Source: a virus
Virus record (IMG/VR): IMGVR_UViG_3300005337_000019
Coordinates: 18,991-82,990 of that record
Reading direction: 5' to 3' (one strand)
DNA length: 64,000 nucleotides
Shown: piece after piece, positions 475 to 64,000 of the stretch
Layout: each line of letters begins with the position of its first letter
How positions within the stretch are numbered: the stretch's first letter is position 1
Notes under the pieces: model-generated
What the model was told of the DNA's origin: nothing
Seen by the model: the letters and a program-made list of their open reading frames with translations, nothing else
Databases searched by the model: none
Made by a program: the position numbers and the translations under genes

Positions 475-993
475 ATGGTGATGATGAAACGAATGCCGCG
501 CGCGTCGGACGCCGTGCGAGTCCCGCATTTGATGTTCCGCCACATCGGTATCGACTTCAACCGCGACGATCCGCGCCCGGAAATCACGGCGGATGTCGAA
601 GCCTTCGTCGACGACATGAACGAGCTGCGCGAGCTCTACGACGCCGGCGCGATCGACATCGGTCACGGCAGCGCGCTTGTGACCGAACCACCGCACTACG
701 CACTGCGTCTGGACCGGTCGATCGACATCGAACCGCCATGGTCGTCGAGTAGACCAGTTCTGCGCGGCAGCGGCCGTGTTTACGCGCGCGACCGAGAAGG
801 CGGTCCAATCATCATTCTCGTACGAGTGCCGTTCCAGCGGCGACCGTGGCGCATCACGATCGAGCTTGACCACGGCCGGGACTGGATTCTGCCGCGGGAG
901 CCTTTGACGATGCGCCAGGCAGGCCTCGCCGAGATGATCATCCAAAGCGCGCGACCGCTCTTTCGAAACCGAGGTGGGAGTACTTCGAAATGA
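475..993 (+). CDS. Hypothetical protein
   Basis: 172 residues; the ATG directly follows the previous TGA, and the stop overlaps the start of the nucleotidyltransferase gene (ATGA at 990). In-frame ATGs at 481 and 484 are alternative starts. The protein is of mixed charge with no membrane segment. I do not recognise a family; its place immediately before the nucleotidyltransferase suggests co-expression only. Confidence 0.7.
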   Translation: MVMMKRMPRASDAVRVPHLMFRHIGIDFNRDDPRPEITADVEAFVDDMNELRELYDAGAIDIGHGSALVTEPPHYALRLDRSIDIEPPWSSSRPVLRGSGRVYARDREGGPIIILVRVPFQRRPWRITIELDHGRDWILPREPLTMRQAGLAEMIIQSARPLFRNRGGSTSK

Positions 994-2249
994 CCAGCAC
1001 AATCCCGATCACGCTTCCCGGCCTGACCGACGAGCAAGTATCGAAGATGTTTCCATTTGGCCTCGTCATGCTCGCCCACGTCGGCAGCAAGAGCCACGGC
1101 ACCTACGTTCCCAAAGCCGACCCGGAGAGCATCGACGACATCGACCTCATGGGCGTCTTCATCCCGCCGCTGGCCGGCTACTTCGGCTTCGGCCGCCAAC
1201 AGACCGTCGAGCGAAAGTTCGGCGAGTTCGGGCCGTACGACTGCGTGAGCTACGACCTGCAGCACTTCGTGACTCTGCTCATGAAGTCGAATCCGAATGT
1301 GCTCGGCATGCTGTGGATGCCGCCCGAGCACCTGCTCTACCGCACGCACGTCGCCAACACGCTCATCGAAAACCGCGACATGTTCGCCACGCGCCACGCC
1401 TACCAGAGCTTCGTCGGCTACGCGAGAGGGCAGTTGCACCGCATGACTCACTTCGACGCCGCGGCGCGCCTCCGGATGCAGCAAGTCGAGGACGAGCTCG
1501 AGCGCCGGACGATCCCACTGAACCTGACGCCAGAGGAGTTGCTGGACACTCGCCCCGATCTTTACCGCGAGGCGGGATCGTGGAAGCCGGGCGAGACAGG
1601 CTCGCGGCCGTTCCTCGAGGAGAAGGGTTGCGATCTCCTCGAGACCTACCGGCAGATGTGCAACAAATACACGAGCGGGTACATGGGGAAGAAGCGCCGC
1701 GAGCTCGTCGAGCGGTTCGGCTACGACGTGAAGAACGCCGCACACCTTCTCCGCCTCCTGTCCATGGCGATCGAGTTTCTGTCGACGGGCGAGCTTCACG
1801 TCGACCGGACCGAGCGCGACGCCGATCAACTCATGGAGGTGAAGCGCGGCGAATGGACCCTCGCCCGCGTGAAGGCGTGCGCTGACGCGTTGTTTTCTGA
1901 GGCCGAGATCGCGCACCAGCGGAGCCGTCTGCCGCTTCGGCCTGACCGGGAGGCGGTCGAGCGCATGCTCGTGCGGATGCTGGGCGACGCCTTCGCGGTG
2001 CCGTTGGAAGCGCGCGGGCATCTCGCAATCATGCTGCATTACGTGCATCTCGTCGCTAAGTCGCGCGGCAACACGACTGTTCTGGCTTCATGCCTCGCGG
2101 TCAACGGAGCACCCTGCGAATGGTGCAACGCGGGATCGCCGATTTCGACGCTGACGCTTACCGGGAGCGGCTACGGCTATCCCCACGGCGTCGATACGGG
2201 TGAGTTCCGGCGCCTGGTCGGCGAGATGAGAGAGCGAGGGTACGTGTGA
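990..2249 (+). CDS. Predicted nucleotidyltransferase, RlaP / DNA polymerase beta superfamily
   Basis: 419 residues. The N-terminal part (about residues 25-60) holds the pol-beta-type signature: GSKSHGTYVPKADPE followed by SIDDIDLMGVF, i.e. the Gly-Ser catalytic turn and the spaced acidic residues (DDID) that bind two metals. This matches the family of large phage and bacterial nucleotidyltransferases called RlaP (RNA-ligase-associated) or COG3541. The rest is helical with a C-terminal PC.WC segment. The likely reaction is nucleotide transfer to RNA or another acceptor; the substrate is not known from sequence, and no RNA ligase gene is visible nearby. It overlaps the next gene by GTGA. Confidence 0.8.
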   Translation: MTSTIPITLPGLTDEQVSKMFPFGLVMLAHVGSKSHGTYVPKADPESIDDIDLMGVFIPPLAGYFGFGRQQTVERKFGEFGPYDCVSYDLQHFVTLLMKSNPNVLGMLWMPPEHLLYRTHVANTLIENRDMFATRHAYQSFVGYARGQLHRMTHFDAAARLRMQQVEDELERRTIPLNLTPEELLDTRPDLYREAGSWKPGETGSRPFLEEKGCDLLETYRQMCNKYTSGYMGKKRRELVERFGYDVKNAAHLLRLLSMAIEFLSTGELHVDRTERDADQLMEVKRGEWTLARVKACADALFSEAEIAHQRSRLPLRPDREAVERMLVRMLGDAFAVPLEARGHLAIMLHYVHLVAKSRGNTTVLASCLAVNGAPCEWCNAGSPISTLTLTGSGYGYPHGVDTGEFRRLVGEMRERGYV

Positions 2250-4880: not shown

Positions 4881-5233
4881 CAACGACGAACGTGCTGCCG
4901 CTCGCTCCCCTCACCACCGCCGACGACCGCTCCGCAACCATCCGCACCATCCGCAAGAACCTCCATGCCCGCGGCCTCACGTGGGTGTCGGTGGTCGGCG
5001 ACCGCGGAACTGCGTGGGCGTGGATCACCATCAAAGCCATGCCGAGCAAAGGTAAGAACAGCTACGGCAGCATGACGGACGCGCAGTGTGCCGAGCTTGC
5101 CGCTGCCCTCGGCCTGGACATCGTGCATCACCAAGGCGTCTCCGTTGCCGGTAGCGACGCATACCGCGTCGAATTTCTCGACCGCAGCGCAGGCCAGACG
5201 CCCCGCATGATCGGCAAGCCGTACTGGGACTGA
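4877..5233 (+). CDS. Hypothetical protein, leaderless
   Basis: 118 residues starting at the predicted transcription start of class A promoter 2. An IRKNLHARGLTWVSVVG-like alpha/beta segment with an aromatic strand (TAWAWITI) is vaguely like the LPD29 domain of large polyvalent phage proteins, but the match is too weak to assign. No membrane segment. Monocistronic or co-transcribed with the methyltransferase that follows. Confidence 0.7.
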   Translation: MTTTNVLPLAPLTTADDRSATIRTIRKNLHARGLTWVSVVGDRGTAWAWITIKAMPSKGKNSYGSMTDAQCAELAAALGLDIVHHQGVSVAGSDAYRVEFLDRSAGQTPRMIGKPYWD

Positions 5234-22979: not shown

Positions 22980-23183
22980 GATCACCCGGCCCGGTGTGAT
23001 GCTTCTCCGCGTGGCCATCGCAAGGTGGACCGTTTCGCGGGAGCACACCGGCGCTCTCTGCGCGCTGTGAATAATCCGGCGCATAAAATGCGCGCGAAAA
23101 GACAAAGTGCCAAGCATCAGACGTGGTAACCCATTGAGATGCAGCGGTTTCAGCGTATACCGGCCACGTCGATCTGCAGTGAA
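22980..23183. other. Gap between convergent genes
   Basis: No gene supported. It contains a compact hairpin GCGCAT (23079-23084) with ATGCGC (23088-23093) and an AAA loop, which may terminate transcription from either side. Nothing else stands out. Confidence 0.4.
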
Positions 23184-31300: not shown

Positions 31301-34152
31301 AGTACGAGAACAAGCGTCTGGAGATCGAGGAGAACACTCGCAAGGCGATCGCCGAGCAGCAGGCCCTCATCAAAAGCTCCGAGCGGCGCATCGAACTGCA
31401 CGTTGCGCTACCGGAAGACACGCAGGCGATCCAGCGCGCGACCGATCGCATCAAGGAAATCACGCGCAAGGGCACCGCGGAGATCGAGACCGAGCGCGTG
31501 AACCGCGACACGAAAATCATGCAGGTCTACGCCGAGATGCAGAAGACGATGCGCACCTCTCGGCAGCAGACCGAAGAGGCGCGCGCCGCGCAGGTGGCCG
31601 GCGATGAGGCGGAACGTGGCCTCGAAATCGCGCGCGCCACGCTCGATGTCGAGAGGGCGCGGTCGGCCGAGATCATGACGCAGGCCAACGCCTCACGCAT
31701 GGCGAGCGCCGAGCGTCTCGTCGCCGAGCAGGAGTTCGAATCGAAGCGCATCGCGATCGCCGAGGAAGCAAACAAACAGATCGCCGAACAGCGGTCGATC
31801 ATCGATACGGCGACGCAGCGCATCAACGGGAATTTCGACGGGATCGCGGCGACGCCGGCGGACTATCAGGCGTTGGATCGCGCGATCGCGCGCATTCGCG
31901 AGATTCAGCGCAAGGCGAACGCCGACACGCTGAAGGAGCGGCTGCAGCTCAACGCGAATACCACGAACATCGACATCAATGAACAGCGCAACCGGCAGGA
32001 GGCCCTCAACACGCTCCGCGGCGATTCGTACGCCATCGAGCTCGCCGAGAAGATCATCCATGAGCGGGCGAAGGGCACGATCGAAGGCGCCGAGGCGGCG
32101 CGCTCTGCGGCGCACCTGCTGCGCATCTACCTCGACACGCTCGATCTGATCGAGGACCACTGGAAGAACGTCGCTCAATCCATGGCGGACTCGGTCACCT
32201 CGGCATTCGAAACGATGCTGCGCGGCGGCAAGCTGGCGGACGTGGCGAAGGCCATCGGAGAGGTTTGGCAAAAGAACGCGCTGGGCGACATCAGTGAATG
32301 GCTGAAGAACTGGGCCGGCAAGGTGGCGAACGCGGCGAACGGCCGCGACGCCAACGGTAACGTGATCCCGGACGGCTCCCCTGGCGCGAAAGGCTCGCCC
32401 GAGCAGAAACGCGCGATGGTCAAGCTCGGCGCAGCGCAATCGGTCGGTGCTGGCCTTGCCGGCTATGCCGCGGGGCAGGGCGGCGGAGCTGCGACCGCGT
32501 CGGCCGTCGCCGCGTTCGCATCGGGGCTGATGTCCGGAAACATCTACGTCGCGATCGCTGCCGCGATTGCGTCGCTGATCGGATCGGCGATCGCCGGCGA
32601 GCAGAAACGCGCCAACTACAAATACGGCGTTCCCACCTTCCTCGGAAATGGGCAGGTGGACGTGCAGGGCACGCGCAACATCGAGAAGCCCGAGCGCGAC
32701 GCGATGATTTCGAAGTTCCAGAGTCAGTTTAATGACCAGTGGAACGCCTGGGTGAACATCGCGCTCAAGCTGCCGGGCACCAAAATCCCGAAGCTGGACA
32801 CGGCGTTCACGCCGTACTCTCGCGACTATTTCCAACCCGAGGCGTCGCAGAACTTCCTCAAGCACTGGGACGAATACCTCGCCAACACGTTGCCCGACGA
32901 GATCGCCGGCAAGTTCAAAGACGGCCTCCGTGCGTCGTTCATCGACGCGATGGCGACGATGGCCCGAGGTCCTGTAACGGCAGACGTGAAGAAGCTGCTC
33001 GGCGCGCAGTTCGATAAGTTTTGGGCCGAAGCCGACAAACTCGACGCAAACAAGCGGACGCAGTTCTGGAGCGATCTCGCGGACGGTCTCAACGCCTTCG
33101 CCAACGCGCAGCGCCGCCTGAAGAACGTCGGCCTCGCGATGGGCAACCTGTCGGCCGCACGCTTCGACGAGAACGGCAATTTCAAACAGAACGGCGATTC
33201 CGACTTCGTCTCGACGCTCAAGCAAGGCACGCAGGGCATCTTCGATCAGGCGCGCGCAATGGTGAACCTCACGGGTCCGGATCGCGTTGCCGCGTTCAAG
33301 CAACTGGGGCAATCGATCGAACAGGTGACCAAGTCGCTGAGCGACTACATCGCCCACATCGGCGAGGTGCTGCGCAACCTGCGCAACAGCTTCGACGACG
33401 CTTACTACCAGCACAAGCTCTTCATGGCCGGCGAGGTTCAGGACGCGAACGGCAACGTGATCCATCCGGCCGACAAGAACGCGCAAGCGCGGATCATGGA
33501 GGAGGAGTACAACCGAACCGTCAACAAAATCCAGAACGCGGCATCGCTCGGCCTGAGCGCCGACGAAGTGGAGGCACTGACCAACAAGGCGATGGGCCTG
33601 CTCAACGACATCTTCATGCTCGACCCGACCGCGAAGGCGGATGCGTGGTGGGCAGATCAGATGGCCGTTCTCGACCGGCTGAGCCAGCAGTCGATTCTCG
33701 AGCTCGGTGAGAGGGCAAAGAGCGCGGTCGACAAGCTCTTGCTGGAGGTGCAGCCGTTCGTCGATTGGTTCAACGGTCTGCCCGTCGATCTGAAGGCCGC
33801 GCAGGCCGAGCTCACCGGGCCGGGAGGAGCGTTCGACGGATTCGCTCAGGCGCTCGAGGACCTGACGAAGCGCATCAACGAAACCTTGCCGGGCGGCGGC
33901 ACGACGCCGAGCGGTCCCGGCACTGGCGGCAACGGTCCTGGCGATGGCGGCACCGGCGGCGAAAAGAATCAGGACCTTCGCACTGGGTCCTCTTTCTCGG
34001 CATCCTCTGCGGCGGTGGTCACGTCCGCCGGCGACACGTACAACTTCTACTTTGGAAACGTCTACGGCGTGGATGACCTTCAGGGACAGATCCTCGCCGC
34101 GATCGAGTATGCGGCCAACAGCAAGCCGCAAATCCTACAGAGGAAATGGTGA
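28360..34152 (+). CDS. Tape measure protein
   Basis: 1930 residues from ATG 28360 (MDIVQGVRIEV). The largest gene, located after the tail chaperones. Residues about 110-190 form a highly regular coiled coil (repeats of AAERE/QKR type), residues about 285-320 a hydrophobic segment (ILALVFAVTAAFRILVNVI), residues 770-1270 a second long coiled-coil region with internal repeats (the ERNLSLAHATFDVEKAKTAE and ERGLEIARATLDVERARSAE units), and residues about 1350-1420 a Gly/Ala-rich membrane-active segment (YVAIAAAIASLIGSAIAG). Tape length scales at roughly 1.5 angstrom per residue, so a tail near 290 nm is suggested if the whole protein is extended; this is inference. Confidence 0.92.
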   Translation: MDIVQGVRIEVQTKGTDKVGTLSRSVETLIEKVGGLNNLSLAGLTSNLNSAAQAAANLVKSISGTAVTQQTAQMGRSVTAAAETSSRAVDRAAAQQERAAKRAADTQAREAKRAADAAEREQKRATDAAEREQKRLTDAAEREHRRMTAAVEREARKRQAAIEREARAEEREMMNLATRAARGVQRNFALGKLTDGQTSTLGSLGLSASSLAGMATKDAAKAINEALGNIPDKAERTRMAFQLMGQAAQSATPQINSLSGGLIVLLQSFMKGGTSGMSAALGALINPLTIILALVFAVTAAFRILVNVISMVASAMYEAGKTGLEYNAFLLEAKLGIGSLLMTYGRWIDGQGRVIDSSRAFVRAQQLSVQVLEQARIAALETTATFPEMVRGLQEGMGPALQAGFNPTQVVRFTQAMTQAAGAIGMPFEQLGQEIRGVFEFDFSKNSRISRMLFQGMGKSAEELRTQFAAMSSAARFDFIMDRLKAFSLAGDQLARTPKGALSNLKDAYQQILGAGTVKLTDDFTKAVLRLSNSFLIVGKNGEKAFNPFLIEAIKKTYDSVDRLGMRVLDLAEAFSALVPFVSLDFKGDTTFERLSDAISDATHKLREYAEILRDISNHPWSWASTGATAGLMGMMPFGTPLAALILKLRGATSGQSASARVSEEDDWLKDIADPKVAKWIAENSTENGDRRWIRENISWLKQLRIQSGGPAAEEGAMPNTGNVDAYYLQYDKPDDADTAHKIEQMRQGVETAQQQAKLAGTVNQYDRENLQLKIAIGNADEKLLKSRAEAEKMEGSAKQKTELLALAQKQSDADKLAAQNAYSVAMDRISRQANEQVRSAQAQLEITRMQIGAAGKLDELVRARVNHNVALANIENERLSTRAGIDPGNPNKGRLESLADQTAAAKRTAENVAYEESIAETTRQQEEQTRAMKFSADQAERNLSLAHATFDVEKAKTAEILTQGDAARLAITQRIAAETEYENKRLEIEENTRKAIAEQQALIKSSERRIELHVALPEDTQAIQRATDRIKEITRKGTAEIETERVNRDTKIMQVYAEMQKTMRTSRQQTEEARAAQVAGDEAERGLEIARATLDVERARSAEIMTQANASRMASAERLVAEQEFESKRIAIAEEANKQIAEQRSIIDTATQRINGNFDGIAATPADYQALDRAIARIREIQRKANADTLKERLQLNANTTNIDINEQRNRQEALNTLRGDSYAIELAEKIIHERAKGTIEGAEAARSAAHLLRIYLDTLDLIEDHWKNVAQSMADSVTSAFETMLRGGKLADVAKAIGEVWQKNALGDISEWLKNWAGKVANAANGRDANGNVIPDGSPGAKGSPEQKRAMVKLGAAQSVGAGLAGYAAGQGGGAATASAVAAFASGLMSGNIYVAIAAAIASLIGSAIAGEQKRANYKYGVPTFLGNGQVDVQGTRNIEKPERDAMISKFQSQFNDQWNAWVNIALKLPGTKIPKLDTAFTPYSRDYFQPEASQNFLKHWDEYLANTLPDEIAGKFKDGLRASFIDAMATMARGPVTADVKKLLGAQFDKFWAEADKLDANKRTQFWSDLADGLNAFANAQRRLKNVGLAMGNLSAARFDENGNFKQNGDSDFVSTLKQGTQGIFDQARAMVNLTGPDRVAAFKQLGQSIEQVTKSLSDYIAHIGEVLRNLRNSFDDAYYQHKLFMAGEVQDANGNVIHPADKNAQARIMEEEYNRTVNKIQNAASLGLSADEVEALTNKAMGLLNDIFMLDPTAKADAWWADQMAVLDRLSQQSILELGERAKSAVDKLLLEVQPFVDWFNGLPVDLKAAQAELTGPGGAFDGFAQALEDLTKRINETLPGGGTTPSGPGTGGNGPGDGGTGGEKNQDLRTGSSFSASSAAVVTSAGDTYNFYFGNVYGVDDLQGQILAAIEYAANSKPQILQRKW

Positions 34153-34715
34153 TTTCAATGGTGCTACATCTCATCGCCTGGGTCGTCGTTGCGTACGTCA
34201 CGATGTCGGCAACCGAGTACGTCTCTCACCGCTGGTTCATGCATCGGCCGATTGCGGCGCGCTGGCCTGCGCTGACGCAATTTCCGCGTCTGCAATGGCT
34301 GTGGGGGATCGTACGGCACGCGTACGCCAGGCACGCCGTGCTGCATCACGGTCGGCACTACGGGCGCTCCTTTGAGCGTTCGGACGACCCTGAAGCGCAG
34401 CACACCAGCGTGGATGTGACCCCCGCCGAGATGCTCGTCGGGCTGGCGCCATTGTGGTTGCCGGTGTTCTTTTTCGTGAGTTGGACGGGCGGCGTGATTC
34501 TGGCGATGACGTTCGTCGCCCACGGCTTCGCGTGGGGCGTGTTGCATCGCGAAATGCACGAACCGCAAGGCCGTTGGTTTGCCACGACGCGTCTCTATCG
34601 GTTCTTTCGCGGCTACCACGCCGCGCATCACGCGCACGTGAATCGGAACTTCAACGCGATTTTCCCGTTGTTTGACCACCTTTTCGGCACCTACGGAGGG
34701 CGCACCGTTGCGTGA
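34146..34715 (+). CDS. Membrane fatty-acid hydroxylase / desaturase superfamily
   Basis: 189 residues overlapping the tape measure stop. Four membrane segments are likely (VLHLIAWVVVAYVTM, LVGLAPLWLPVFFFVSW, GVILAMTFVAHGFAW and neighbours). The di-iron His clusters are complete: HRWFMH near residue 28, HAVLHHGRHYG near 63, HREMH near 138, and YHAAHHAHVNRNFNAIFPLF near 157, the last typical of the FA_hydroxylase / carotene-hydroxylase family. The expected reaction is O2-dependent hydroxylation or desaturation of a lipid. Its place inside the tail operon, fused by overlap to the tape measure gene, is remarkable. Confidence 0.8.
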   Translation: MVISMVLHLIAWVVVAYVTMSATEYVSHRWFMHRPIAARWPALTQFPRLQWLWGIVRHAYARHAVLHHGRHYGRSFERSDDPEAQHTSVDVTPAEMLVGLAPLWLPVFFFVSWTGGVILAMTFVAHGFAWGVLHREMHEPQGRWFATTRLYRFFRGYHAAHHAHVNRNFNAIFPLFDHLFGTYGGRTVA

Positions 34716-44620: not shown

Positions 44621-44655
44621 TTGACATGCTGACCGGTAAGCATTACATTGGATTC
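44621..44655 (+). promoter_or_regulatory. Class A promoter 5 with embedded operator dyad, leaderless
   Basis: TTGACA 44621-44626, 17-bp spacer with TGCTGACCGGTAAGCA (44627-44642), TACATT 44644-44649, ATG 44656 seven bases past the -10. It is in the 108-bp region between the HTH regulator and the next operon. Confidence 0.8.
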
Positions 44656-49271: not shown

Positions 49272-49456
49272 GGAAGTGGAAAATCGTGACGCCTTTCATC
49301 GTCGCCGTCGACGCCGCGCTGTACGGCTTCGTGATGCGCGGATATGCCGTCCGACACGCCGTTGACCACGCCACCCGCTTTGGCGTGATCCACGGCGTCA
49401 TCTTCGCGGTGTGCTTCCCGATGGTGGTGTTGGGGCTCCGGAGATTGCTCAGATGA
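49268..49456 (+). CDS. 62-residue membrane protein
   Basis: ATGA overlap with the previous gene and overlap with the methyltransferase start. Two hydrophobic segments (VTPFIVAVDAALYGFVM and FGVIHGVIFAVCFPMVVLGL) separated by a charged loop with His. Could be a holin-sized inner-membrane protein, but the context is not lytic. Function unknown. Confidence 0.6.
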   Translation: MRKWKIVTPFIVAVDAALYGFVMRGYAVRHAVDHATRFGVIHGVIFAVCFPMVVLGLRRLLR

Positions 49457-52035
49457 CGGCCGCCGCGCCGCTTTCATGGGAAGTCGAGGCGCAGCAGCTT
49501 CGCATCCTCGGCTTGCATCGATCGAGACTTCGCCCCGGCGAGATCGGAGTTGATCTCTTTGCCGGCGGCGGAGGCTACTCGGAAGGCTACCAGTGGGCGG
49601 TCGGGATGCCGCCCGCCGTCGCGGTGAATCACGACGCGAACGCGATCGCGATGCACACGATGAATCACCCGGAGGCTGAACACTTCCTCGAGGACGTGTT
49701 CCACGTCGATCCGCTGATCGCGTGCCGCGGGCGTCTGGTCGGCATGCTGCACGGCTCGCCGGATTGCACTCACTTTTCCCGAGCCAAAGGTTCGGTTCCG
49801 AAGTCGAAGAAGATTCGCGGGCTCGCGTGGGCGATCGTCCGGTGGGCGGCCGAAGTCAACCCGCGCATGCTCTCGCTCGAGAACGTCGAGGAGTTCATGA
49901 CCTGGGGGCCCCTAGACGACCGCGGCAATCCCGTCAAAGCGCGCGCCGGCGAGACATTCCGTGCGTTCGTTGCGTGCTTGACCGATGGACTTCCGGCCGA
50001 TCATCCCGCGTATGAGGACATGCACTTCGCGTTGGTCGGCGATCCTCCGGTGCCGTGCCGGAAACATCCTCGCCGCCGGCGAGCTCGCTGCCTGAAATGC
50101 CAGGCGATCGCGGCGTCCGACTATCCGCGAATGCCGCTCGACCGCTACGAGGCGATCGTCGCGAAGTGCGTCAAGGGACTGCGCTACGAGGTGGAATGGC
50201 GCTCTCTCAAGGCTGCCGATTTCGGAGCGCCGACCTCACGCAAGCGCCTCTATGTCTTCGGCCGCCGTGACGGCGAGTCGATTCGCTGGCCGCTGCCGAC
50301 GTACGGACCGAAAGCGCACAAACCCTACCGCACCGCGGCCGACTGCATCGATTGGCGGGATCTCGGCGTCTCGATTTTCCTGACTCCGGAGGAGGCGCGC
50401 GCGTACGGCGTGAAGCGGCCTCTCGCTGAGGCCACGCAGCGCCGCATCGCGGAGGGCATTCGCCGGTATGTCCTGAACAGCCCGAAGCCGTTTCTCGTGC
50501 CGTACCACAGCGCCAGGCGGCCCGAAGAGACGCCGCGCGTGCACGATGTCGACGACCCGCTGGCGACGCAGACGACCGAGAACCGGTTCGCGGTGGTCAC
50601 GCCGACGCTGATGAGCAACAACACGAACAACGCGCCGCACTCTATCGAGGAGCCGCTCGGCACGGTGACGACCGGAAACCGGCACTTCGCCATTGCGCCG
50701 TTGCTCACGCCGGCGAACAGCCACGGTTTCGACGCGGACGGTGGTTCGCCCACCGCGCCGGCCGATCGTCCGATGCGGACCGTCATCACGAAGGACCCCA
50801 AGGCGCTCATCGCGCCGCAGCTCCTGAACGTGACGCACGGCGGGCGCATTGAACCCGCCGACGAACCGTTCAAGACGATCACGGCCGCGCACCGCGGCGA
50901 GAAGGCGCTCGTCGCGCCGACGCTGATTCAGACGAGCTACGGCGAGCGGAAAGGGCAAGCGCCTCGAGTCCTTGACCTCGACGAACCTCTCGGCACCGTC
51001 GTCGCCGGCGGTGTCAAGCATGGCCTCGTGGAGACGATCATGACGCGCGAGGAAGATGTCGCGGCCTTCCTCGTCCGCAATAACACCGGCATGAACGCGC
51101 GCGACCTGAAGGAAGTGATGCCGACCGTCTGCGCGCGCGAGACGATGTCACTCGGCCTGGCACACATCACAAAGTTCAACACCGGCAGCGTCGGCGCTTC
51201 CGTCGAGGACCCGCTGCCGACGATCACCGCCGGCGATGGATCGAAGCGGCCCGCCGGAGCCGCGCACGGCCTCGGCGTCGTCACCGCGCACGTGGTGACG
51301 CACAACGGGCAGTCGGTCGGCTCGGCTGCCGATGCTCCGGTCCCGACCGTGACAGCGGGCGGCATGGGTCATCAGGGCGTTGTGATCGCGCACATGCTCG
51401 ACGTGACGCCGTGCCCGGAGATCGAAGGCCGGTGGCACGTCGGAAACGGGTGGGATCTCTGCGTCGACGAGACAGGACTCTCGCACGTGCAGGAGAAGGA
51501 GCGCGCGGAGGAACGAGAGCAGGCCGAGCTTGCGGCGGCGATCCACGTCACGCAGTTCAACGGGACATCGGAAGCCGGCGCGCCGGTCGACGAGCCGATG
51601 CGCACGGTGACGAGCGGCGGCAACCGCGGCGGCGGGCATCATGGCGTCGCGGCGGTGCACCTCGCGAAGTATTACGGTTCCGATGAGCACGGCCAGGCAG
51701 CGGATGAGCCGCTTCATACTGTACCGACCGTCGACCGTTTCGCGCTCGTCGCTGCGTTCCTGCGAAAGTTCGACGTGATCGACGACGACCGCCCGTACGT
51801 CACGGTGTCGATCGAGACTGAACCCGGCAAGCACGAGACATTCATCCTCTACGACATCGCCATGCGCATGCTTCAACCGCGCGAGCTGGCGCGCGCGCAG
51901 GGGTTCCCCGACAGCTATCAGCTCACCGGCACCAAGTCGCAGCAGGTCGCGCGCATCGGCAATTCGGTCTGCCCGCACGTCGCCGCGGCGATCGTCCGCG
52001 CGAATCTCGACAGCGAGGAGGAAGTGTGGAACTGA
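49453..52035 (+). CDS. DNA cytosine-C5 methyltransferase with expanded repeat-rich recognition region
   Basis: 860 residues from ATG 49453. VDLFAGGGGYSEGY (about residues 33-46) is motif I; HGSPDCTHFSRAKG (about 101) is the catalytic Cys loop with an Asp-Cys in place of Pro-Cys; LSLENVEEF (about 141) is the ENV motif; TSRKRLYVFGRR (about 260) is motif VIII-like; and QVARIGNSVCPHVAAAIV (about 831-848) is motif X. Between residues 340 and 780 the protein carries many copies of a short module of the form EPLGTVTTGN then HxLV, resembling repeats in large phage C5 enzymes. It should methylate cytosine in a specific sequence to evade restriction. Confidence 0.88.
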   Translation: MTAAAPLSWEVEAQQLRILGLHRSRLRPGEIGVDLFAGGGGYSEGYQWAVGMPPAVAVNHDANAIAMHTMNHPEAEHFLEDVFHVDPLIACRGRLVGMLHGSPDCTHFSRAKGSVPKSKKIRGLAWAIVRWAAEVNPRMLSLENVEEFMTWGPLDDRGNPVKARAGETFRAFVACLTDGLPADHPAYEDMHFALVGDPPVPCRKHPRRRRARCLKCQAIAASDYPRMPLDRYEAIVAKCVKGLRYEVEWRSLKAADFGAPTSRKRLYVFGRRDGESIRWPLPTYGPKAHKPYRTAADCIDWRDLGVSIFLTPEEARAYGVKRPLAEATQRRIAEGIRRYVLNSPKPFLVPYHSARRPEETPRVHDVDDPLATQTTENRFAVVTPTLMSNNTNNAPHSIEEPLGTVTTGNRHFAIAPLLTPANSHGFDADGGSPTAPADRPMRTVITKDPKALIAPQLLNVTHGGRIEPADEPFKTITAAHRGEKALVAPTLIQTSYGERKGQAPRVLDLDEPLGTVVAGGVKHGLVETIMTREEDVAAFLVRNNTGMNARDLKEVMPTVCARETMSLGLAHITKFNTGSVGASVEDPLPTITAGDGSKRPAGAAHGLGVVTAHVVTHNGQSVGSAADAPVPTVTAGGMGHQGVVIAHMLDVTPCPEIEGRWHVGNGWDLCVDETGLSHVQEKERAEEREQAELAAAIHVTQFNGTSEAGAPVDEPMRTVTSGGNRGGGHHGVAAVHLAKYYGSDEHGQAADEPLHTVPTVDRFALVAAFLRKFDVIDDDRPYVTVSIETEPGKHETFILYDIAMRMLQPRELARAQGFPDSYQLTGTKSQQVARIGNSVCPHVAAAIVRANLDSEEEVWN

Positions 52036-53095: not shown

Positions 53096-53472
53096 ATCAC
53101 AAAGACACCGTGCCAGTAATGGCGAACATCGTGCCGTGGAACGAGGCGATCCTCCGCGGCATCCGCACGTTCAAGACGCTGCACTTCAATTGGTCGTATC
53201 GCGGGCCGCTCGTGCTCTACAACAGCCACGGCCAGCCTGCCGCGGATGACATCGTCTACGGAGCCACGCACGGCATCAATATCGCCGAGCAGCGCCGCGG
53301 GTTCATCGTGGGCGTAGTCGATGTGGTCGACTGCGTCGATGCGCGCCGCGAGGACGGTCATTGGCACGTCGAACTGCGCAATCCGCGCCGCGTTGACCCT
53401 CTGCCGTACAAGCCGACGCGCGGATCGATCCGCATCTCGCGCATGCCCAGGACTGCTGCGCCATGGCTCTGA
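53086..53472 (+). CDS. ASCH-like domain protein
   Basis: 128 residues from ATG 53086. ILRGIRTFKTLHFNWSYRGP followed by LVLYNS, a GFIVGVVDVVDCVDARR segment and a basic end match the PUA-like ASCH fold, in which the GxKTxxxR motif is replaced by GIRTFKT. ASCH proteins bind RNA or nucleotides. It overlaps the XRE gene by 10 bases. Confidence 0.6.
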   Translation: MRVDHKDTVPVMANIVPWNEAILRGIRTFKTLHFNWSYRGPLVLYNSHGQPAADDIVYGATHGINIAEQRRGFIVGVVDVVDCVDARREDGHWHVELRNPRRVDPLPYKPTRGSIRISRMPRTAAPWL

Positions 53473-53885
53473 ACTGGGCCGGCATTCGTACAGGGCTTGT
53501 CGCTTTGCGCGTGAGCGCAGGGATGACGCAGAAGGGCCTCGCCTTGGCGTCTGGCGTCGGCGAGAAGACGATCGGCAGCTATGAGGCCGGCAGCCGCATT
53601 AAAACGATGAAGGTCAAGCAACTCGATGCCATCCTCGGCGCGCTCGGCACGAACCTCGTCGACTTTTTCTCCTCCATCGACGAGAGCGCCGCCGCCGAAG
53701 AAGAATCGGAGGCGCCGCCACCGAGGCGCCCTGCGCACAATGTGCCGGATGATGATCTCGATGCCGTCGCTTGCGACCTGGCGCGCATGACACGCCCGCA
53801 AAGTCTTGCCTATCCGAGCCCGCAGAGTTCTCTCAGCAACCACGCCCGCATCGGCGTGCATCTGTCGCGGCGTCATTCGTCATAG
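53463..53885 (+). CDS. XRE-family HTH repressor-like protein
   Basis: 140 residues. Residues about 5-65 (GIRTGLVALRVSAGMTQKGL, ALASGVGEKTIGSYEAGSRI, KQLDAILGALGTNLVDFF) form a complete Cro/C1 helix-turn-helix with the expected final helices. The C-terminal tail is acidic then Ser-rich and lacks the LexA-type cleavage or dimer domain. The class B promoter of the nuclease gene lies at its 3' end. It is one of two candidates for the regulator of the class A dyads. Confidence 0.8.
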   Translation: MALNWAGIRTGLVALRVSAGMTQKGLALASGVGEKTIGSYEAGSRIKTMKVKQLDAILGALGTNLVDFFSSIDESAAAEEESEAPPPRRPAHNVPDDDLDAVACDLARMTRPQSLAYPSPQSSLSNHARIGVHLSRRHSS

Positions 53886-57585: not shown

Positions 57586-57890
57586 TGAGCGTACTTCTCG
57601 CCGCGATCAATCGTGCCCGCCAGGCTCGCGGAAATGACGACAGCGGCATTTTGATCGAGTGCCCCGATGGTTTGGTCGTGGGGGCGACGATCGACGCTCA
57701 CGGGCGCGAGAGTGGCGGCGAGTTCGTGCCGTGCGGGAGACAGGTGTCCTACCGGGGCGCCTGTCCCCGCTGTGGCAGCCGTAGCTGGGCGCCGGCGGGG
57801 CCGGATGAGTCGACGCCTGTCGACCTGAAGGCGAAGCGCGAGGAGCGTGCCGCGCGCAATATTTTGAGGCTCGTGGGGGGCATGGATTGA
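57585..57890 (+). CDS. Small zinc-ribbon protein
   Basis: 101 residues, TAATG overlap with the previous stop. FVPCGRQVSYRGACPRCGSR gives three to four Cys ligands, and a basic helix follows. Function unknown. Confidence 0.6.
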   Translation: MSVLLAAINRARQARGNDDSGILIECPDGLVVGATIDAHGRESGGEFVPCGRQVSYRGACPRCGSRSWAPAGPDESTPVDLKAKREERAARNILRLVGGMD

Positions 57891-57899
57891 TGATCGTGG

Positions 57900-58170
57900 A
57901 AGGCTCGAGCAACGCTGTGGAAAACCTGCGGAATCTCTCCGGATTTCCCGAGTCGCGCCACTCGGCGCAATCGAGGCTGCGGAAAAATGCGGCCTCGATC
58001 CTCAAATTTTCCGCGCTGTTTTCCGCAATTCAAAACCCACCTATCCGACGCAGGGCCATAGCGTTGCCCGAGTTTTCCACAATTCATGCTAACCACTACC
58101 ACTACCACAAGAAAGAGAGACCTGTATTTCAGATGGAACCGGCGACTGAGCAAACTGCGGAAAACGCACC
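57900..58170. other. Candidate replication origin: DnaA-box cluster
   Basis: Six copies of TTTTCC(A/G)C(A/G) lie within 250 bases: 57916-57924 (minus), 57978-57986 (minus), 58007-58015, 58019-58027, 58073-58081 and 58156-58164 (minus). Two of them, TTTTCCACA, fit the bacterial DnaA consensus TTWTNCACA; the others differ by A to G. The stretch is less GC-rich than its surroundings. It precedes a gene for a double-HTH protein, which is a common place for phage origins. Confidence 0.55.
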
Positions 58171-58899: not shown

Positions 58900-59481
58900 A
58901 TGGCGCGCATCAACACGCAGTGCCCGGACTGCAAGCGGATGTTTCTCGTCGAGCGAGAGATGTGGCTTGCGATCCAGCGAGGAGACGCTGACGCGCTCGC
59001 GCAGACGTGCGGTCGCGGCGATTGCCAGGAGCTCGCGCGGGCGATCGCTGTAGAGCAAACCAAAGCCATCTCATCACCGCGGCGCCGGCGGCAGTCGTTC
59101 CCGCCGGAACTGCGTCAGCAAGCGGTCCCGGAGAAGAACACGCAGGCCGCGATTCTCCACTACCTCGCCATTCGCGGGATCTTCGCCTGGCGTCAAAACC
59201 AGGGCGCGATGCGGATGGAAAACAAAGCAAACGAGATGGGCCGCAGAAAGCGCCGGGACAGATTCATCAGGTTCGCCGCGGTCGATGGCATCAGCGATAT
59301 CATCGGCATCTACAAAGGCCGGTTTCTCTCCATCGAAGTAAAAAAGGTCGGCAACAAACCCACGGATCACCAGCGCGATTTTCTGACGCGCGTCGACAAA
59401 GAGGGCGGCATCGCAATCGTCGCCTACAGTGTCGACGACGTTGTGAGCGCGCTTGCAGACGTGGATCGAGGAGCACGATGA
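58900..59481 (+). CDS. VRR-NUC domain nuclease
   Basis: 193 residues. The N-terminus has a CPDCKRMF knuckle; the nuclease core starts near residue 77: EKNTQAAILHYLAIRGIFAW, WRQNQGAM, GISDIIGIYKGRFLSIEVKK (about 131-150) and GGIAIVAYSVDDVVSAL. The Glu, the Gly-Ser-Asp and the IEVK Glu-X-Lys are the PD-(D/E)XK ligands of VRR-NUC enzymes, which cut branched or flapped DNA. It probably resolves recombination intermediates. Confidence 0.8.
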   Translation: MARINTQCPDCKRMFLVEREMWLAIQRGDADALAQTCGRGDCQELARAIAVEQTKAISSPRRRRQSFPPELRQQAVPEKNTQAAILHYLAIRGIFAWRQNQGAMRMENKANEMGRRKRRDRFIRFAAVDGISDIIGIYKGRFLSIEVKKVGNKPTDHQRDFLTRVDKEGGIAIVAYSVDDVVSALADVDRGAR

Positions 59482-60812: not shown

Positions 60813-61044
60813 ACGCACAGCGCATGCGCGGAGCTCGTATACCCAACGCTTTACGCAGGAGATGAGAACCCGTATCGGTGGATAATCGAGTTTTCAGAAG
60901 CAATGCGCAAGGCATTCAAAAGCATCGAAAATTTAGCTCTCGAAACGGGTTCTTACGCCAACGCGAAGGAACAAGCCGACCGGAGTTTCAGCCGCATCTG
61001 GCGTAACACGTTCGGATGACGGTCGGTCCCATCCCTGGGGAATG
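60813..61044. other. Intergenic region with in-frame open extension
   Basis: No separate gene is certain. The frame of the DUF2303 gene continues open from 60813 to TGA 61017-61019 with protein-like residues (for example ENPYRWIIEFSEAMRKAFKS). An ATG at 60903 would give a 38-residue peptide but lacks an RBS. Either readthrough or a gene remnant is possible. Confidence 0.4.
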
Positions 61045-61079
61045 AACGGCGTCGGCGAAAGTCGGCGCCGTTTTCATTT
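61045..61079 (+). terminator. Intrinsic terminator
   Basis: AACGGCG (61045-61051) pairs with CGCCGTT (61066-61072) and TTTTCATTT overlaps and follows the stem. It ends the DUF2303 transcription unit and precedes a class B promoter by nine bases. Confidence 0.75.
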
Positions 61080-61087
61080 GCGCGCTT

Positions 61088-61107
61088 CATTCGTCGTGAC
61101 GTAGAAT
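61088..61107 (+). promoter_or_regulatory. Class B promoter for the Gp37/Gp68 gene, leaderless
   Basis: Box 61088-61107 ending TAGAAT (61102-61107), variant TTCGTCGTGACG. A weak TTGCGC at 61078-61083 could serve as -35. ATG 61115 is eight bases past the -10; an in-frame ATG at 61106 overlaps it. Confidence 0.75.
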
Positions 61108-61114
61108 GATCCGC

Positions 61115-62188
61115 ATGGGAAACACAACGATCGAATGGACGTGGCAACGGCTGCCCGGCGGCGGCCTGATCATCGAAGGCAGAACCGTCAACGGATGGAG
61201 CGGCTGCACGAAGGTCATCCTTCCGAGCGGCAAACCGGACCCGCAGTGCATGCACTGCTATGCCGAGCGAGAAGAGGACAAACGGCGTGGCCGCTCGCGG
61301 TGGGGCCGCGGCAATCCGCGAACGCTGTTCAAGTCGTGGAGCGCCAACATGCGGAAGTGGAATGAGGAGGCGAAGAAGCTCGGCGTGGCGCCGTTCGTCT
61401 TCGGTCACTCGCTTTCTGACTGGGCCGATGAGGAAGTTCCCGACGCATGGCGCGACGCCATCATGGATGTCGCAGAAAAGTGCACGAACCTCGTCATGCT
61501 CTGGCTCACGAAACGCGTGGAGTACGCGGCGGAATACTGGCACCGCCGATATCCGACTGGGATTCCCGACAATTTCTACTTCGGATTTTCTGCCGGCAAC
61601 GTAGAAGGCTTTCTGACGCGCGCGAAGTGGGCGTCGATCGTTCCGGCGGCCGTCAAGTTTGTGTCGATCGAGCCGTATGTCGAGCCGTTCGCGGAGCTCC
61701 TTCGGATGAACGTGAAGCGCCCCGAAGGATGGGCCGGCGGGTGGCGTCCTCTGGTCGACTGGGTTCTGACCGGCGGCGAAACCGACACCTTCGAACGGAT
61801 CGCCAGTCGGATCGTGCACAGCTCGCATTACGAGGACGTGATCGACGTGGCGCACGAGGCCGGATTGTGGGGCCATTTCAAACAGTGGGGCAACCTCGCG
61901 CCGTTGACGCAAAGCCTCGGCGGCGTGGTGCCTGTGCGTATCGCCGGCGTGACCCGCAGCGGCATCCACATCGTCGACATGCGCATCGAAGGGCGCGCTG
62001 TTGAGGGTCCCGACATCGTCAGCGGCCGCGTGACGGTCGAGCAGCTAAAAGAGGCATTCGGCATCGCGCCCGATGATGATCTTGAGATCCACGGCTTTCT
62101 CGGCGGACCACAGGGCAAGCACGCGCACGGCCGGATGCTCAATGGTCGCGAGGTGCACGAGCACCCGCCGGCGAGGTTGATCGCCTGA
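61115..62188 (+). CDS. Gp37/Gp68 family protein (DUF5131), radical-SAM-like
   Basis: 357 residues from ATG 61115. TTIEWTWQRLPGGG, VNGWSGCTKV and PDPQCMHCYAEREEDKRRG reproduce the family signature IEWT...GC...C..CYAE, where three Cys should hold an iron-sulfur cluster. LWLTKRVEYAAEYW and VDWVLTGGE are other family segments. Members occur in many phages and prophages; a modification role is suggested by the radical-SAM-like cluster but no substrate is known. It is followed by a Dam methylase whose start overlaps its stop. Confidence 0.85.
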   Translation: MGNTTIEWTWQRLPGGGLIIEGRTVNGWSGCTKVILPSGKPDPQCMHCYAEREEDKRRGRSRWGRGNPRTLFKSWSANMRKWNEEAKKLGVAPFVFGHSLSDWADEEVPDAWRDAIMDVAEKCTNLVMLWLTKRVEYAAEYWHRRYPTGIPDNFYFGFSAGNVEGFLTRAKWASIVPAAVKFVSIEPYVEPFAELLRMNVKRPEGWAGGWRPLVDWVLTGGETDTFERIASRIVHSSHYEDVIDVAHEAGLWGHFKQWGNLAPLTQSLGGVVPVRIAGVTRSGIHIVDMRIEGRAVEGPDIVSGRVTVEQLKEAFGIAPDDDLEIHGFLGGPQGKHAHGRMLNGREVHEHPPARLIA

Positions 62189-63066
62189 TGGCGACGACCC
62201 GAGTCACGAGACCGCCGATGCGATATTTCGGCGGGAAATGGGTCATCGCGAAATGGCTCATCAGCAACTTCCCCGATCACCGCGTATACGTCGAGCCGTA
62301 CGGTGGCGGAGCGTCCGTGCTGTTGCGAAAGCCGCGCGTCTACTCCGAGGTTTACAACGATATCGATGGCGAGATCGTCAACGTGTTCCGCGTGCTCCAG
62401 AACCCCGAGAAGGCGGCGCAGCTCCGCAAGCTCCTGCACCTCACCCCGTTCGCACGCGACGAGTTTAAGCTCTCGTTTTCGCCGTTCACGCCGACGAACC
62501 TGAAGAAGTTCGGCGACGTCGAGATGGCGCGCCGCACGATCATCCTCTCGCTCATGGGCTTCGGTGCGGACGCGATGCTGCGGCTGTCGACAGGCTTTCG
62601 CGCGGTGTCCAACCGCTCCGGCACAACACCGGCGCATGATTGGAGCAACTATCCAGATTGTGTGCCGGCGTTCGTTGAGCGACTGCGTGGCGTCACGATC
62701 GAGAACCGCGACGCGTTGGACATCATCCGGCAGCACGACGGGCTCGAGACGCTGTTCTACCTCGACCCGCCATACGTTCATGACACGCGATCGCGCAAGA
62801 CGAACCGGAAGAGCGGACGCGTCAAGGCACACGGCTACCGGCATGAGATGACCGACGACGACCACCGCGAGCTAGCGGCGCGTTTGATGGAGCTGCGCGG
62901 CGCAGTCGCGATCTCCGGTTACCACTGTCCGCTCTACGACGAGCTTTATGGCGAATGGCAGTGCGTCGAGAAGACAACGCATGCGGACGGCGCGCGCGAT
63001 CGCCTGGAGGCGTTATGGCTGTCGCCGCGGGCGGTCGTGCAGCAGAAGCTCTTGGCGGTGGGTTGA
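62188..63066 (+). CDS. dam: DNA adenine methylase, Dam (D12) class
   Basis: 292 residues. MRYFGGKWVIAKWLISNFPD (residues 11-30) is the FGGK motif, VEPYGGGASVLL follows, YNDIDGEIVNVFRVLQ is the DxN motif, and FYLDPPYVHD (about residues 190-199) is the catalytic DPPY. GYHCPLYDELYGEWQCVEKT is a further family motif. It transfers a methyl group to N6 of adenine; the target, often GATC in this class, cannot be confirmed from the sequence. Symbol used in the family sense. Confidence 0.88.
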   Translation: MATTRVTRPPMRYFGGKWVIAKWLISNFPDHRVYVEPYGGGASVLLRKPRVYSEVYNDIDGEIVNVFRVLQNPEKAAQLRKLLHLTPFARDEFKLSFSPFTPTNLKKFGDVEMARRTIILSLMGFGADAMLRLSTGFRAVSNRSGTTPAHDWSNYPDCVPAFVERLRGVTIENRDALDIIRQHDGLETLFYLDPPYVHDTRSRKTNRKSGRVKAHGYRHEMTDDDHRELAARLMELRGAVAISGYHCPLYDELYGEWQCVEKTTHADGARDRLEALWLSPRAVVQQKLLAVG

Positions 63067-63446: not shown

Positions 63447-63971
63447 ATGACGATCACGCGGCCACTGTTCCCGCTCCTCTGGTTCGATGAGATCGCGCTC
63501 GACGACGCGAATGCGCTGCTCGCCGCGTGGGAGCACAAGATGGGCGCCGTCGAACGACCGAACGGCTACGCCGTCTGTCACGCCCTCGTGCATCGCAGTG
63601 AGCCTGTCGCGGTCACCGTCTCGTCGACGCTCATCCGCCTCAACGCCGGCGCGGGCCTGAAGCACCTGACGCGTGACAACACCGTCGAGTTGTCGCGTCT
63701 CTGCGCCTCGCGCTCGGGACTGTGCCGCGTCGCACTTCGCATGTGGCGCGAGTTCGTGTTTCCGAGCTTGGGGTTCAAGCACGCGCTGAGCTACCAGGAC
63801 GCAGACCTTCACAACGGCGCTACGTACCGCTTTGACGGGTGGGCGCGCGCGCCGCGCATCTCCAGCAGTGGGACCGATCAACGCAGCGGCAAGAAAGGCC
63901 GGAGGAAGTGGCTGTGGGTGTGGCCGCCGACCGGCTTGGACGCCTCAAAAATTCAGACCGCGGAGGAATAA
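63447..63971 (+). CDS. Mom / XF1762-like GNAT acyltransferase
   Basis: 174 residues. VAVTVSSTLIRLNAGAG, VELSRLCASRSGLCRVALRM, FPSLGFKHALSYQDADLHNG and ATYRFDGWARAP follow the pattern of the XF1762/Mom GNAT family: the ELSRL strand, the helix, the second Glu/Asp-rich strand with HxGATYRxxGW. Mu Mom attaches a carbamoylmethyl-type group to adenine in DNA. Next to Dam and a radical-SAM-like protein, a DNA hypermodification role is likely but inferred. The C-terminus is basic. Confidence 0.7.
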   Translation: MTITRPLFPLLWFDEIALDDANALLAAWEHKMGAVERPNGYAVCHALVHRSEPVAVTVSSTLIRLNAGAGLKHLTRDNTVELSRLCASRSGLCRVALRMWREFVFPSLGFKHALSYQDADLHNGATYRFDGWARAPRISSSGTDQRSGKKGRRKWLWVWPPTGLDASKIQTAEE

Positions 63972-64000
63972 AATCATTGACACTCTACCCCCCCCCCCCC
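63972..64000. other. Right end with poly-C run
   Basis: After the last stop there is ATTGACACTCTA and then 13 C residues to the end of the window. This may be a true homopolymer, an assembly limit or a sequencing artefact. TTGACA (63978-63983) could be a -35, but no -10 can be read. Confidence 0.6.

Follow-up and report, generated by a model that had tools for sequence, protein, structure and literature searches.

A conserved non-coding leader with clustered DnaA-type boxes as a candidate replication origin in an 83-kb phage genome

It is generally assumed that large double-stranded DNA phages mostly supply a replication initiator of their own. In the phage genome studied here, a cluster of 9-bp boxes resembling DnaA boxes lies next to the gene of a DNA-binding protein, which raises the question of whether replication starts at this place, and whether host DnaA or the adjacent protein starts it, as the original prediction suggested. 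The analysed window is a stretch of 64,000 nucleotides, bases 18991-82990 of the 82,990-bp virus record IMGVR_UViG_3300005337_000019 (G000), and positions below are those of the window unless indicated. A syntenic relative, IMGVR_UViG_3300030511_000001 (G001), was reached via TerL and VRR-NUC protein queries (77% and 66% identity to G000, respectively), and all comparative results are from these two genomes. Queries for further relatives with the RecT-like, exonuclease, TerL, VRR-NUC, phrog_204-type and D5-like proteins returned at most G001 alone, and phage database matches to G000 were none or distant. A pattern scan with a box plus CTAACCACTA returned five further contigs, which we attribute to chance, because none of them contains a box cluster. 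The host of the phage was looked for and not found.

The last bases of G000 align to G001 up to position 4951 and its first base aligns to 4953, and the G001 record has a terminal overlap of ~253 bp. Therefore, both records look like complete circles that were cut at different places. The G000 record is closed by a C run (window 63988-64000), which has the appearance of an assembly artefact where the circular map was cut, since the record end and start adjoin each other in G001.

Box cluster and conservation of the leader

The original prediction described six TTTTCC(A/G)C(A/G) boxes in both orientations, two of them fitting TTWTNCACA, and considered so many unlikely to occur at random. All six are located exactly where it placed them, at 57916-58164 with spacings of 62, 29, 12, 54, and 83 (Table 1), and they are the only copies in the window, with seven in the whole 82,990-bp record. 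Most boxes are TTTTCCGCR variants. The two that fit the strict consensus are of the sequence TTTTCCACA, which is an established DnaA box; one box fits it exactly in G001, and the window has two further strict matches, at 23066 and 63141, each standing alone. A look-elsewhere test matters here because the motif had been picked by eye. We searched the whole record with every 9-mer containing two R/Y positions for at least six non-overlapping copies per 270 bp with at least 80% exclusivity. This motif-agnostic search returned this cluster alone, and no cluster was found in 16 local shuffles. The predicted rarity is thus borne out, and the idea survived the check that the motif might be equally dense elsewhere. 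With the relaxed DnaA-box consensus, YYHTMCRHM, which was fixed in advance, the element has more sites than any other 270 bp in the record, 6 versus 0.4 expected, a count reached in 2 of 200 shuffles, although the host's own box preference may differ. One of the six boxes (TTTTCCGCG) misses even the relaxed consensus. The homologous place in G001 is likewise the densest in relaxed DnaA boxes. With five relaxed boxes, the AT-rich gap at 60813-61105 is a rival location in G000, but it does not rank with the densest windows of G001.

Table 1 Features of the element and of related sites (window positions unless indicated)
Feature	Position	Strand	Remarks
Full operators, other, start positions	4304, 4848, 6929; 23974	+; -
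Full promoter-operator, ATGCTGACCGGTAAGCAT between TTGAC and TACATT	44626-44643	+
HTH_3 (Cro/C1-type) regulator, candidate operator-binding protein	53463-53885	+
Upstream gene	57588-57890	+	Ends at leader start, TGATG overlap; from ORF list
Conserved non-coding leader, candidate origin element	57891-58132		Aligned with L010 4937-5185
Left arm, long inverted repeat	57896-57920 (repeat search: 57893-57920)		Covarying pairs
Box 1, TTTTCCACA	57916-57924	-	Fits TTWTNCACA; 8/9 identical in G001
Inner helix, left side, CCTGCG	57925-57930		Helix 2 of covariation analysis
Box 2, TTTTCCGCA	57978-57986	-	6/9 identical in G001
Box 3, TTTTCCGCG	58007-58015	+	9/9 identical in G001; last base breaks relaxed DnaA consensus
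Box 4, TTTTCCGCA	58019-58027	+	3 bp after box 3; 9/9 identical and same spacing in G001
Inner helix, right side, CGCAGG	58049-58054		Helix 2 of covariation analysis
Right arm, long inverted repeat	58056-58080 (repeat search: 58056-58083)		Covarying pairs
Box 5, TTTTCCACA	58073-58081	+	Fits TTWTNCACA; adjoins unstable stretch; 9/9 identical in G001
Low-stability duplex, candidate DNA unwinding element	58080-58129		Lowest 0.05% of the record's 50-bp windows
Lone operator half-site, ATGCTAACC	58086-58094	+	Conserved block to 58099
Multi-HTH DNA-binding protein, T5 D5-like, 254 aa	58133-58897	+	G001 homologue 45% identical
Box 6, TTTTCCGCA	58156-58164	-	Within the 58133 gene; 7/9 identical in G001
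VRR-NUC/endonuclease-like gene	58900-59481	+	Syntenic
Full operators elsewhere in record (record numbering)	14842, 15192	-
Full operators, G001 (G001 numbering)	20523, 21403, 46105; 32764, 67013	-; +

The element extends over ~57891-58132, plus box 6 inside the downstream gene. The predicted local AT-richness agrees with a GC content of 53.6%, compared with ~64%, which places the segment in the lowest 0.7% of 250-bp windows. Identity between G000 and G001 is 89% in the boxes (48/54) and 57% elsewhere in the leader (128/226; p=4e-6), and 2 of 280 rotations do as well. Boxes 3, 4, and 5 are identical in both phages, and the 3-4 spacing is kept. Mismatches in the leader have no codon periodicity, its indels are mostly not multiples of 3, and its codon score is -0.24 versus +0.37 for real genes in frame, with scores of non-coding type in both phages. 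We also considered the leader as an N-terminal extension of the 58133 protein, as its frame is open in both phages (P ~0.03 each); this was ruled out by the non-coding codon scores, the lack of codon rhythm, and the location of the boxes in different frames. Conservation between the two genomes thus shows that the DNA of the boxes is what counts, not a protein encoded by it.

Unstable duplex, inverted repeat, and operator half-site

The original prediction missed the inverted repeat that encloses the boxes, the unstable duplex after box 5, and an operator half-site. An unstable stretch beside boxes is what an origin would be expected to have. In G001, the minima of duplex stability of the genome begin 16 bp (30-bp window) and 5 bp (50-bp window) beyond box 5, which itself lies within the 100-bp minimum. 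An attractive CTACCACTACC look also suggested DnaA-trios. The published criterion asks for a box, a spacer of at most 16 bp, and at least three DnaA-trios (PMC8287927). Box 5 of G000 passes this criterion, with 7 such places in the record, but G001 does not, so that the trios are not conserved. The GC skew, a check suggested together with the original prediction, is weak throughout and does not turn at the element in G000 or G001; its minima are at ~60-62 kb and 68-74 kb, respectively. We therefore dropped it as support for an origin, and note that a skew turning point is not required of phage origins. The original proposal of a replication origin is partly supported, by the box conservation and the adjoining unstable stretch.

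In each genome, no long-range inverted repeat is longer than the one that surrounds the leader. The arms differ between G000 and G001 yet pair, with 95% of cells paired and 5 two-sided compensatory changes, compared with 30-44% paired in slid controls, so the pairing itself is probably under selection. The shuffle control for covariation is modest (21/500), with two sequences only. Such pairing could occur in RNA or in single-stranded DNA, or the arms could be a long site for one protein, present in two inverted copies. Mutation, for example by quasipalindrome correction, is another possible cause.

A dispersed palindrome, ATGCTNACCGGTNAGCAT, is found between TTGAC(A) and TACATT-like hexamers at 7 places in G000 and 5 in G001, which look like the operators of a phage regulon under one dimeric regulator. 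Most operators are then followed by ATG(G/A)AAACGACGAA within ~7-8 bp, as if their transcripts were leaderless and had an N-terminus in common. Only two ATGCTWACC half-sites occur outside full operators, one in each leader, and each is located 4 bp after box 5 (chance expectation 0.0007 in 250 bp). The half-site of the element is without the TTGACA/TACATT frame that surrounds the 12 full operators. The half-operator suggests that the element may be controlled by the phage's regulator.

Gene content and readings of the element

We compared ~40 proteins or ORFs with PHROGs, Pfam, or NCBIfam. The recognised ones include a terminase, a portal, several methyltransferases, a RecT-like protein, an exonuclease, VRR-NUC, the D5-like regulator, and the HTH_3 regulator. 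A HerA/FtsK-like ATPase was recognised as well; among phage proteins, it matches a terminase best. None of the ~40 scanned proteins was recognised as a polymerase, replicative helicase, primase, or Rep. Since the scan covered ~40 ORFs and several of the conserved proteins are without any match, this absence is only suggestive; the phage could still encode an initiator of its own, as many of its proteins have no family match. The adjacent HTH gene of the original prediction does have HTH matches, and its product also resembles D5 of phage T5 (PHROG 323, E=9e-9). When examined as a recognisable initiator, the 58133 protein matched D5-like and HTH families only. Its structural model is of low confidence (pLDDT 65), with weak Myb/homeodomain and MerR-type HTH matches only.

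Several other genes were observed in these genomes. A fatty-acid hydroxylase-like gene (PF04116, window 34146-34715; 45% in G001) is a possible auxiliary metabolic gene. An RlaP-type RNA-repair nucleotidyltransferase (PF10127, E=4e-18) is encoded at window 990-2249, and a 541-aa protein at window 45465-47090 matches phrog_1735 (E=6e-97), with relatives in 485 phage records from very different hosts. The DNA-modification set is rich, containing a Mom-like protein (weak, E=6e-4), a D12-class adenine methylase, a large repeat-bearing methylase, and an N6/N4 methylase (window 63447-63971, 62188-63066, and 49411-52035, and L008:34-813). GATC and CGATCG occur at 2.7 and 5.9 times the expected count, and CTAG is depleted 18 times.

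Our preferred reading, at about even odds, is that the leader acts in cis as DNA and serves as a replication origin, which host DnaA would open and the phage would probably control. Its anatomy, with boxes in both orientations, an unstable stretch next to the outermost plus-strand box, non-coding DNA, a DNA-binding neighbour, and no recognised replisome, fits an origin of this type. We infer that host DnaA would bind the box array, in which boxes 3 and 4 are spaced 3 bp apart and box 5 is nearest the AT-rich side, and that the stretch at 58080-58129 would then open. DnaA would next load the host helicase; we propose the host enzyme because none of the scanned phage proteins was recognised as a helicase, primase, or polymerase. 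Access could be controlled by the D5-like protein or by the phage regulator, which would act at the half-operator (58086) where the unstable stretch begins, and the inverted repeat may form a hairpin once the strands part. A more complete scenario seems unlikely to us: an 83-kb phage without replication machinery of its own would take over host DnaA with a mini oriC, the hairpin would aid helicase loading, and a repressor or regulator would gate the process through the half-operator, as in iteron plasmids.

The inverted repeat could instead belong to a structured leader RNA, a reading that we regard as conceivable but rather doubtful. The stem would form in the sense transcript ahead of the D5-like gene, enclose ~100-190 nt, and control expression of the gene through processing, stability, or translation, and the plus and minus boxes would be alike partly because they pair. 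The long stem with its compensatory changes and its pairing above the slid controls agrees with this reading, as does its rank as the strongest long-range inverted repeat of both genomes. The RNA fold of the leader has z values of -5.5 to -6.5 in G000 and -2.8 in G001, and the non-Watson-Crick stem cells on the sense strand are 7 G-U versus 2 A-C, a mild tilt to RNA. However, the DNA folds are likewise unusual (z of -4.2 and -5.1), and pairing in DNA is equally possible. The inner helices differ between the two phages, boxes 3 and 4, which are best conserved, sit in the loop of the shared stem, and an Rfam search of the leader returned nothing near the gathering score and no described RNA family. 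Box 5, the genome-minimum duplex stability, and the half-operator would also be left unexplained by an RNA.

Control of transcription, with the 9-bp motif as an operator that governs the operon from 58133 and is bound by a phage or host protein (the D5-like protein, the regulator of HTH_3 type, or DnaA in a regulatory role), appears quite unlikely. The DNA-binding gene directly downstream, whose relatives are filed under transcription regulation, and the conserved half-site of the phage-wide operator within the element would be consistent with such control. But a sigma-70-type promoter was searched for in the element and none was found, the half-site is without the hexamer frame, and TTTTCCRCA is asymmetric and has no other cluster, unlike the operator of a regulon; moreover, an operator does not need an unstable stretch. 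We consider it very improbable that the element is another cis-acting site of the phage, for example for packaging (pac) or partition. This idea draws on the HTH part of the 58133 protein, which weakly matches a terminase small subunit (E=0.0013), but the terminase large subunit is ~12 kb away on the circle, and no Par protein was recognised among the scanned proteins.

Relation to known origins

If the host initiator is indeed recruited through an oriC-like element, the leader would show how far replication outsourcing goes in so large a phage and provide a short, testable origin. Even if it is not an origin, the conserved stem, box array, and half-operator form a new, well-bounded regulatory element, common to two phages for which no close relatives turned up in the searched collections. 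The element resembles bacterial oriC (Escherichia coli, Bacillus subtilis) in its several two-way 9-bp boxes adjoining an unstable stretch in non-coding DNA, and the TTTTCCACA type is found in mioC R5. In contrast to oriC, it is located on a phage, contains mostly TTTTCCGCR boxes and a long inverted repeat, and has no conserved DnaA-trios and no skew turn. Iteron plasmids (pi of R6K, RepE of F) have a palindromic operator at promoters and half of it at the origin, beside DnaA boxes. The phage has the same arrangement of promoter palindromes and a half-site beside DnaA-type boxes, but with one half-site only, no iteron array, and no recognised Rep homologue. Lambda-type origins lie inside the initiator gene, and the sites here similarly adjoin or sit inside the gene of a DNA-binding protein; however, regularly spaced direct repeats, as in iteron- and lambda-type origins, were looked for at the element and not found, and the protein resembles D5 of T5 rather than O.

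A possible role for the inverted repeat is suggested by analogy with the A-site of the ABC primosome, where DnaB can be loaded from a DnaA box that lies within a single-stranded hairpin (Masai 1990, as cited in PMC6127211). Box 5 is similarly placed in the stem of the long inverted repeat in G000, but just outside the stem in G001, and the loop is far longer than in the A-site. In Pseudomonas phage vB_PseuGesM_254, which has its own primase and polymerase, an origin was likewise predicted from DnaA boxes and an AT-rich region (PMC11512268). In contrast to that phage, no primase or polymerase was recognised among the proteins scanned here, and the candidate origin is further characterised by the comparison with a relative and by a covarying stem.
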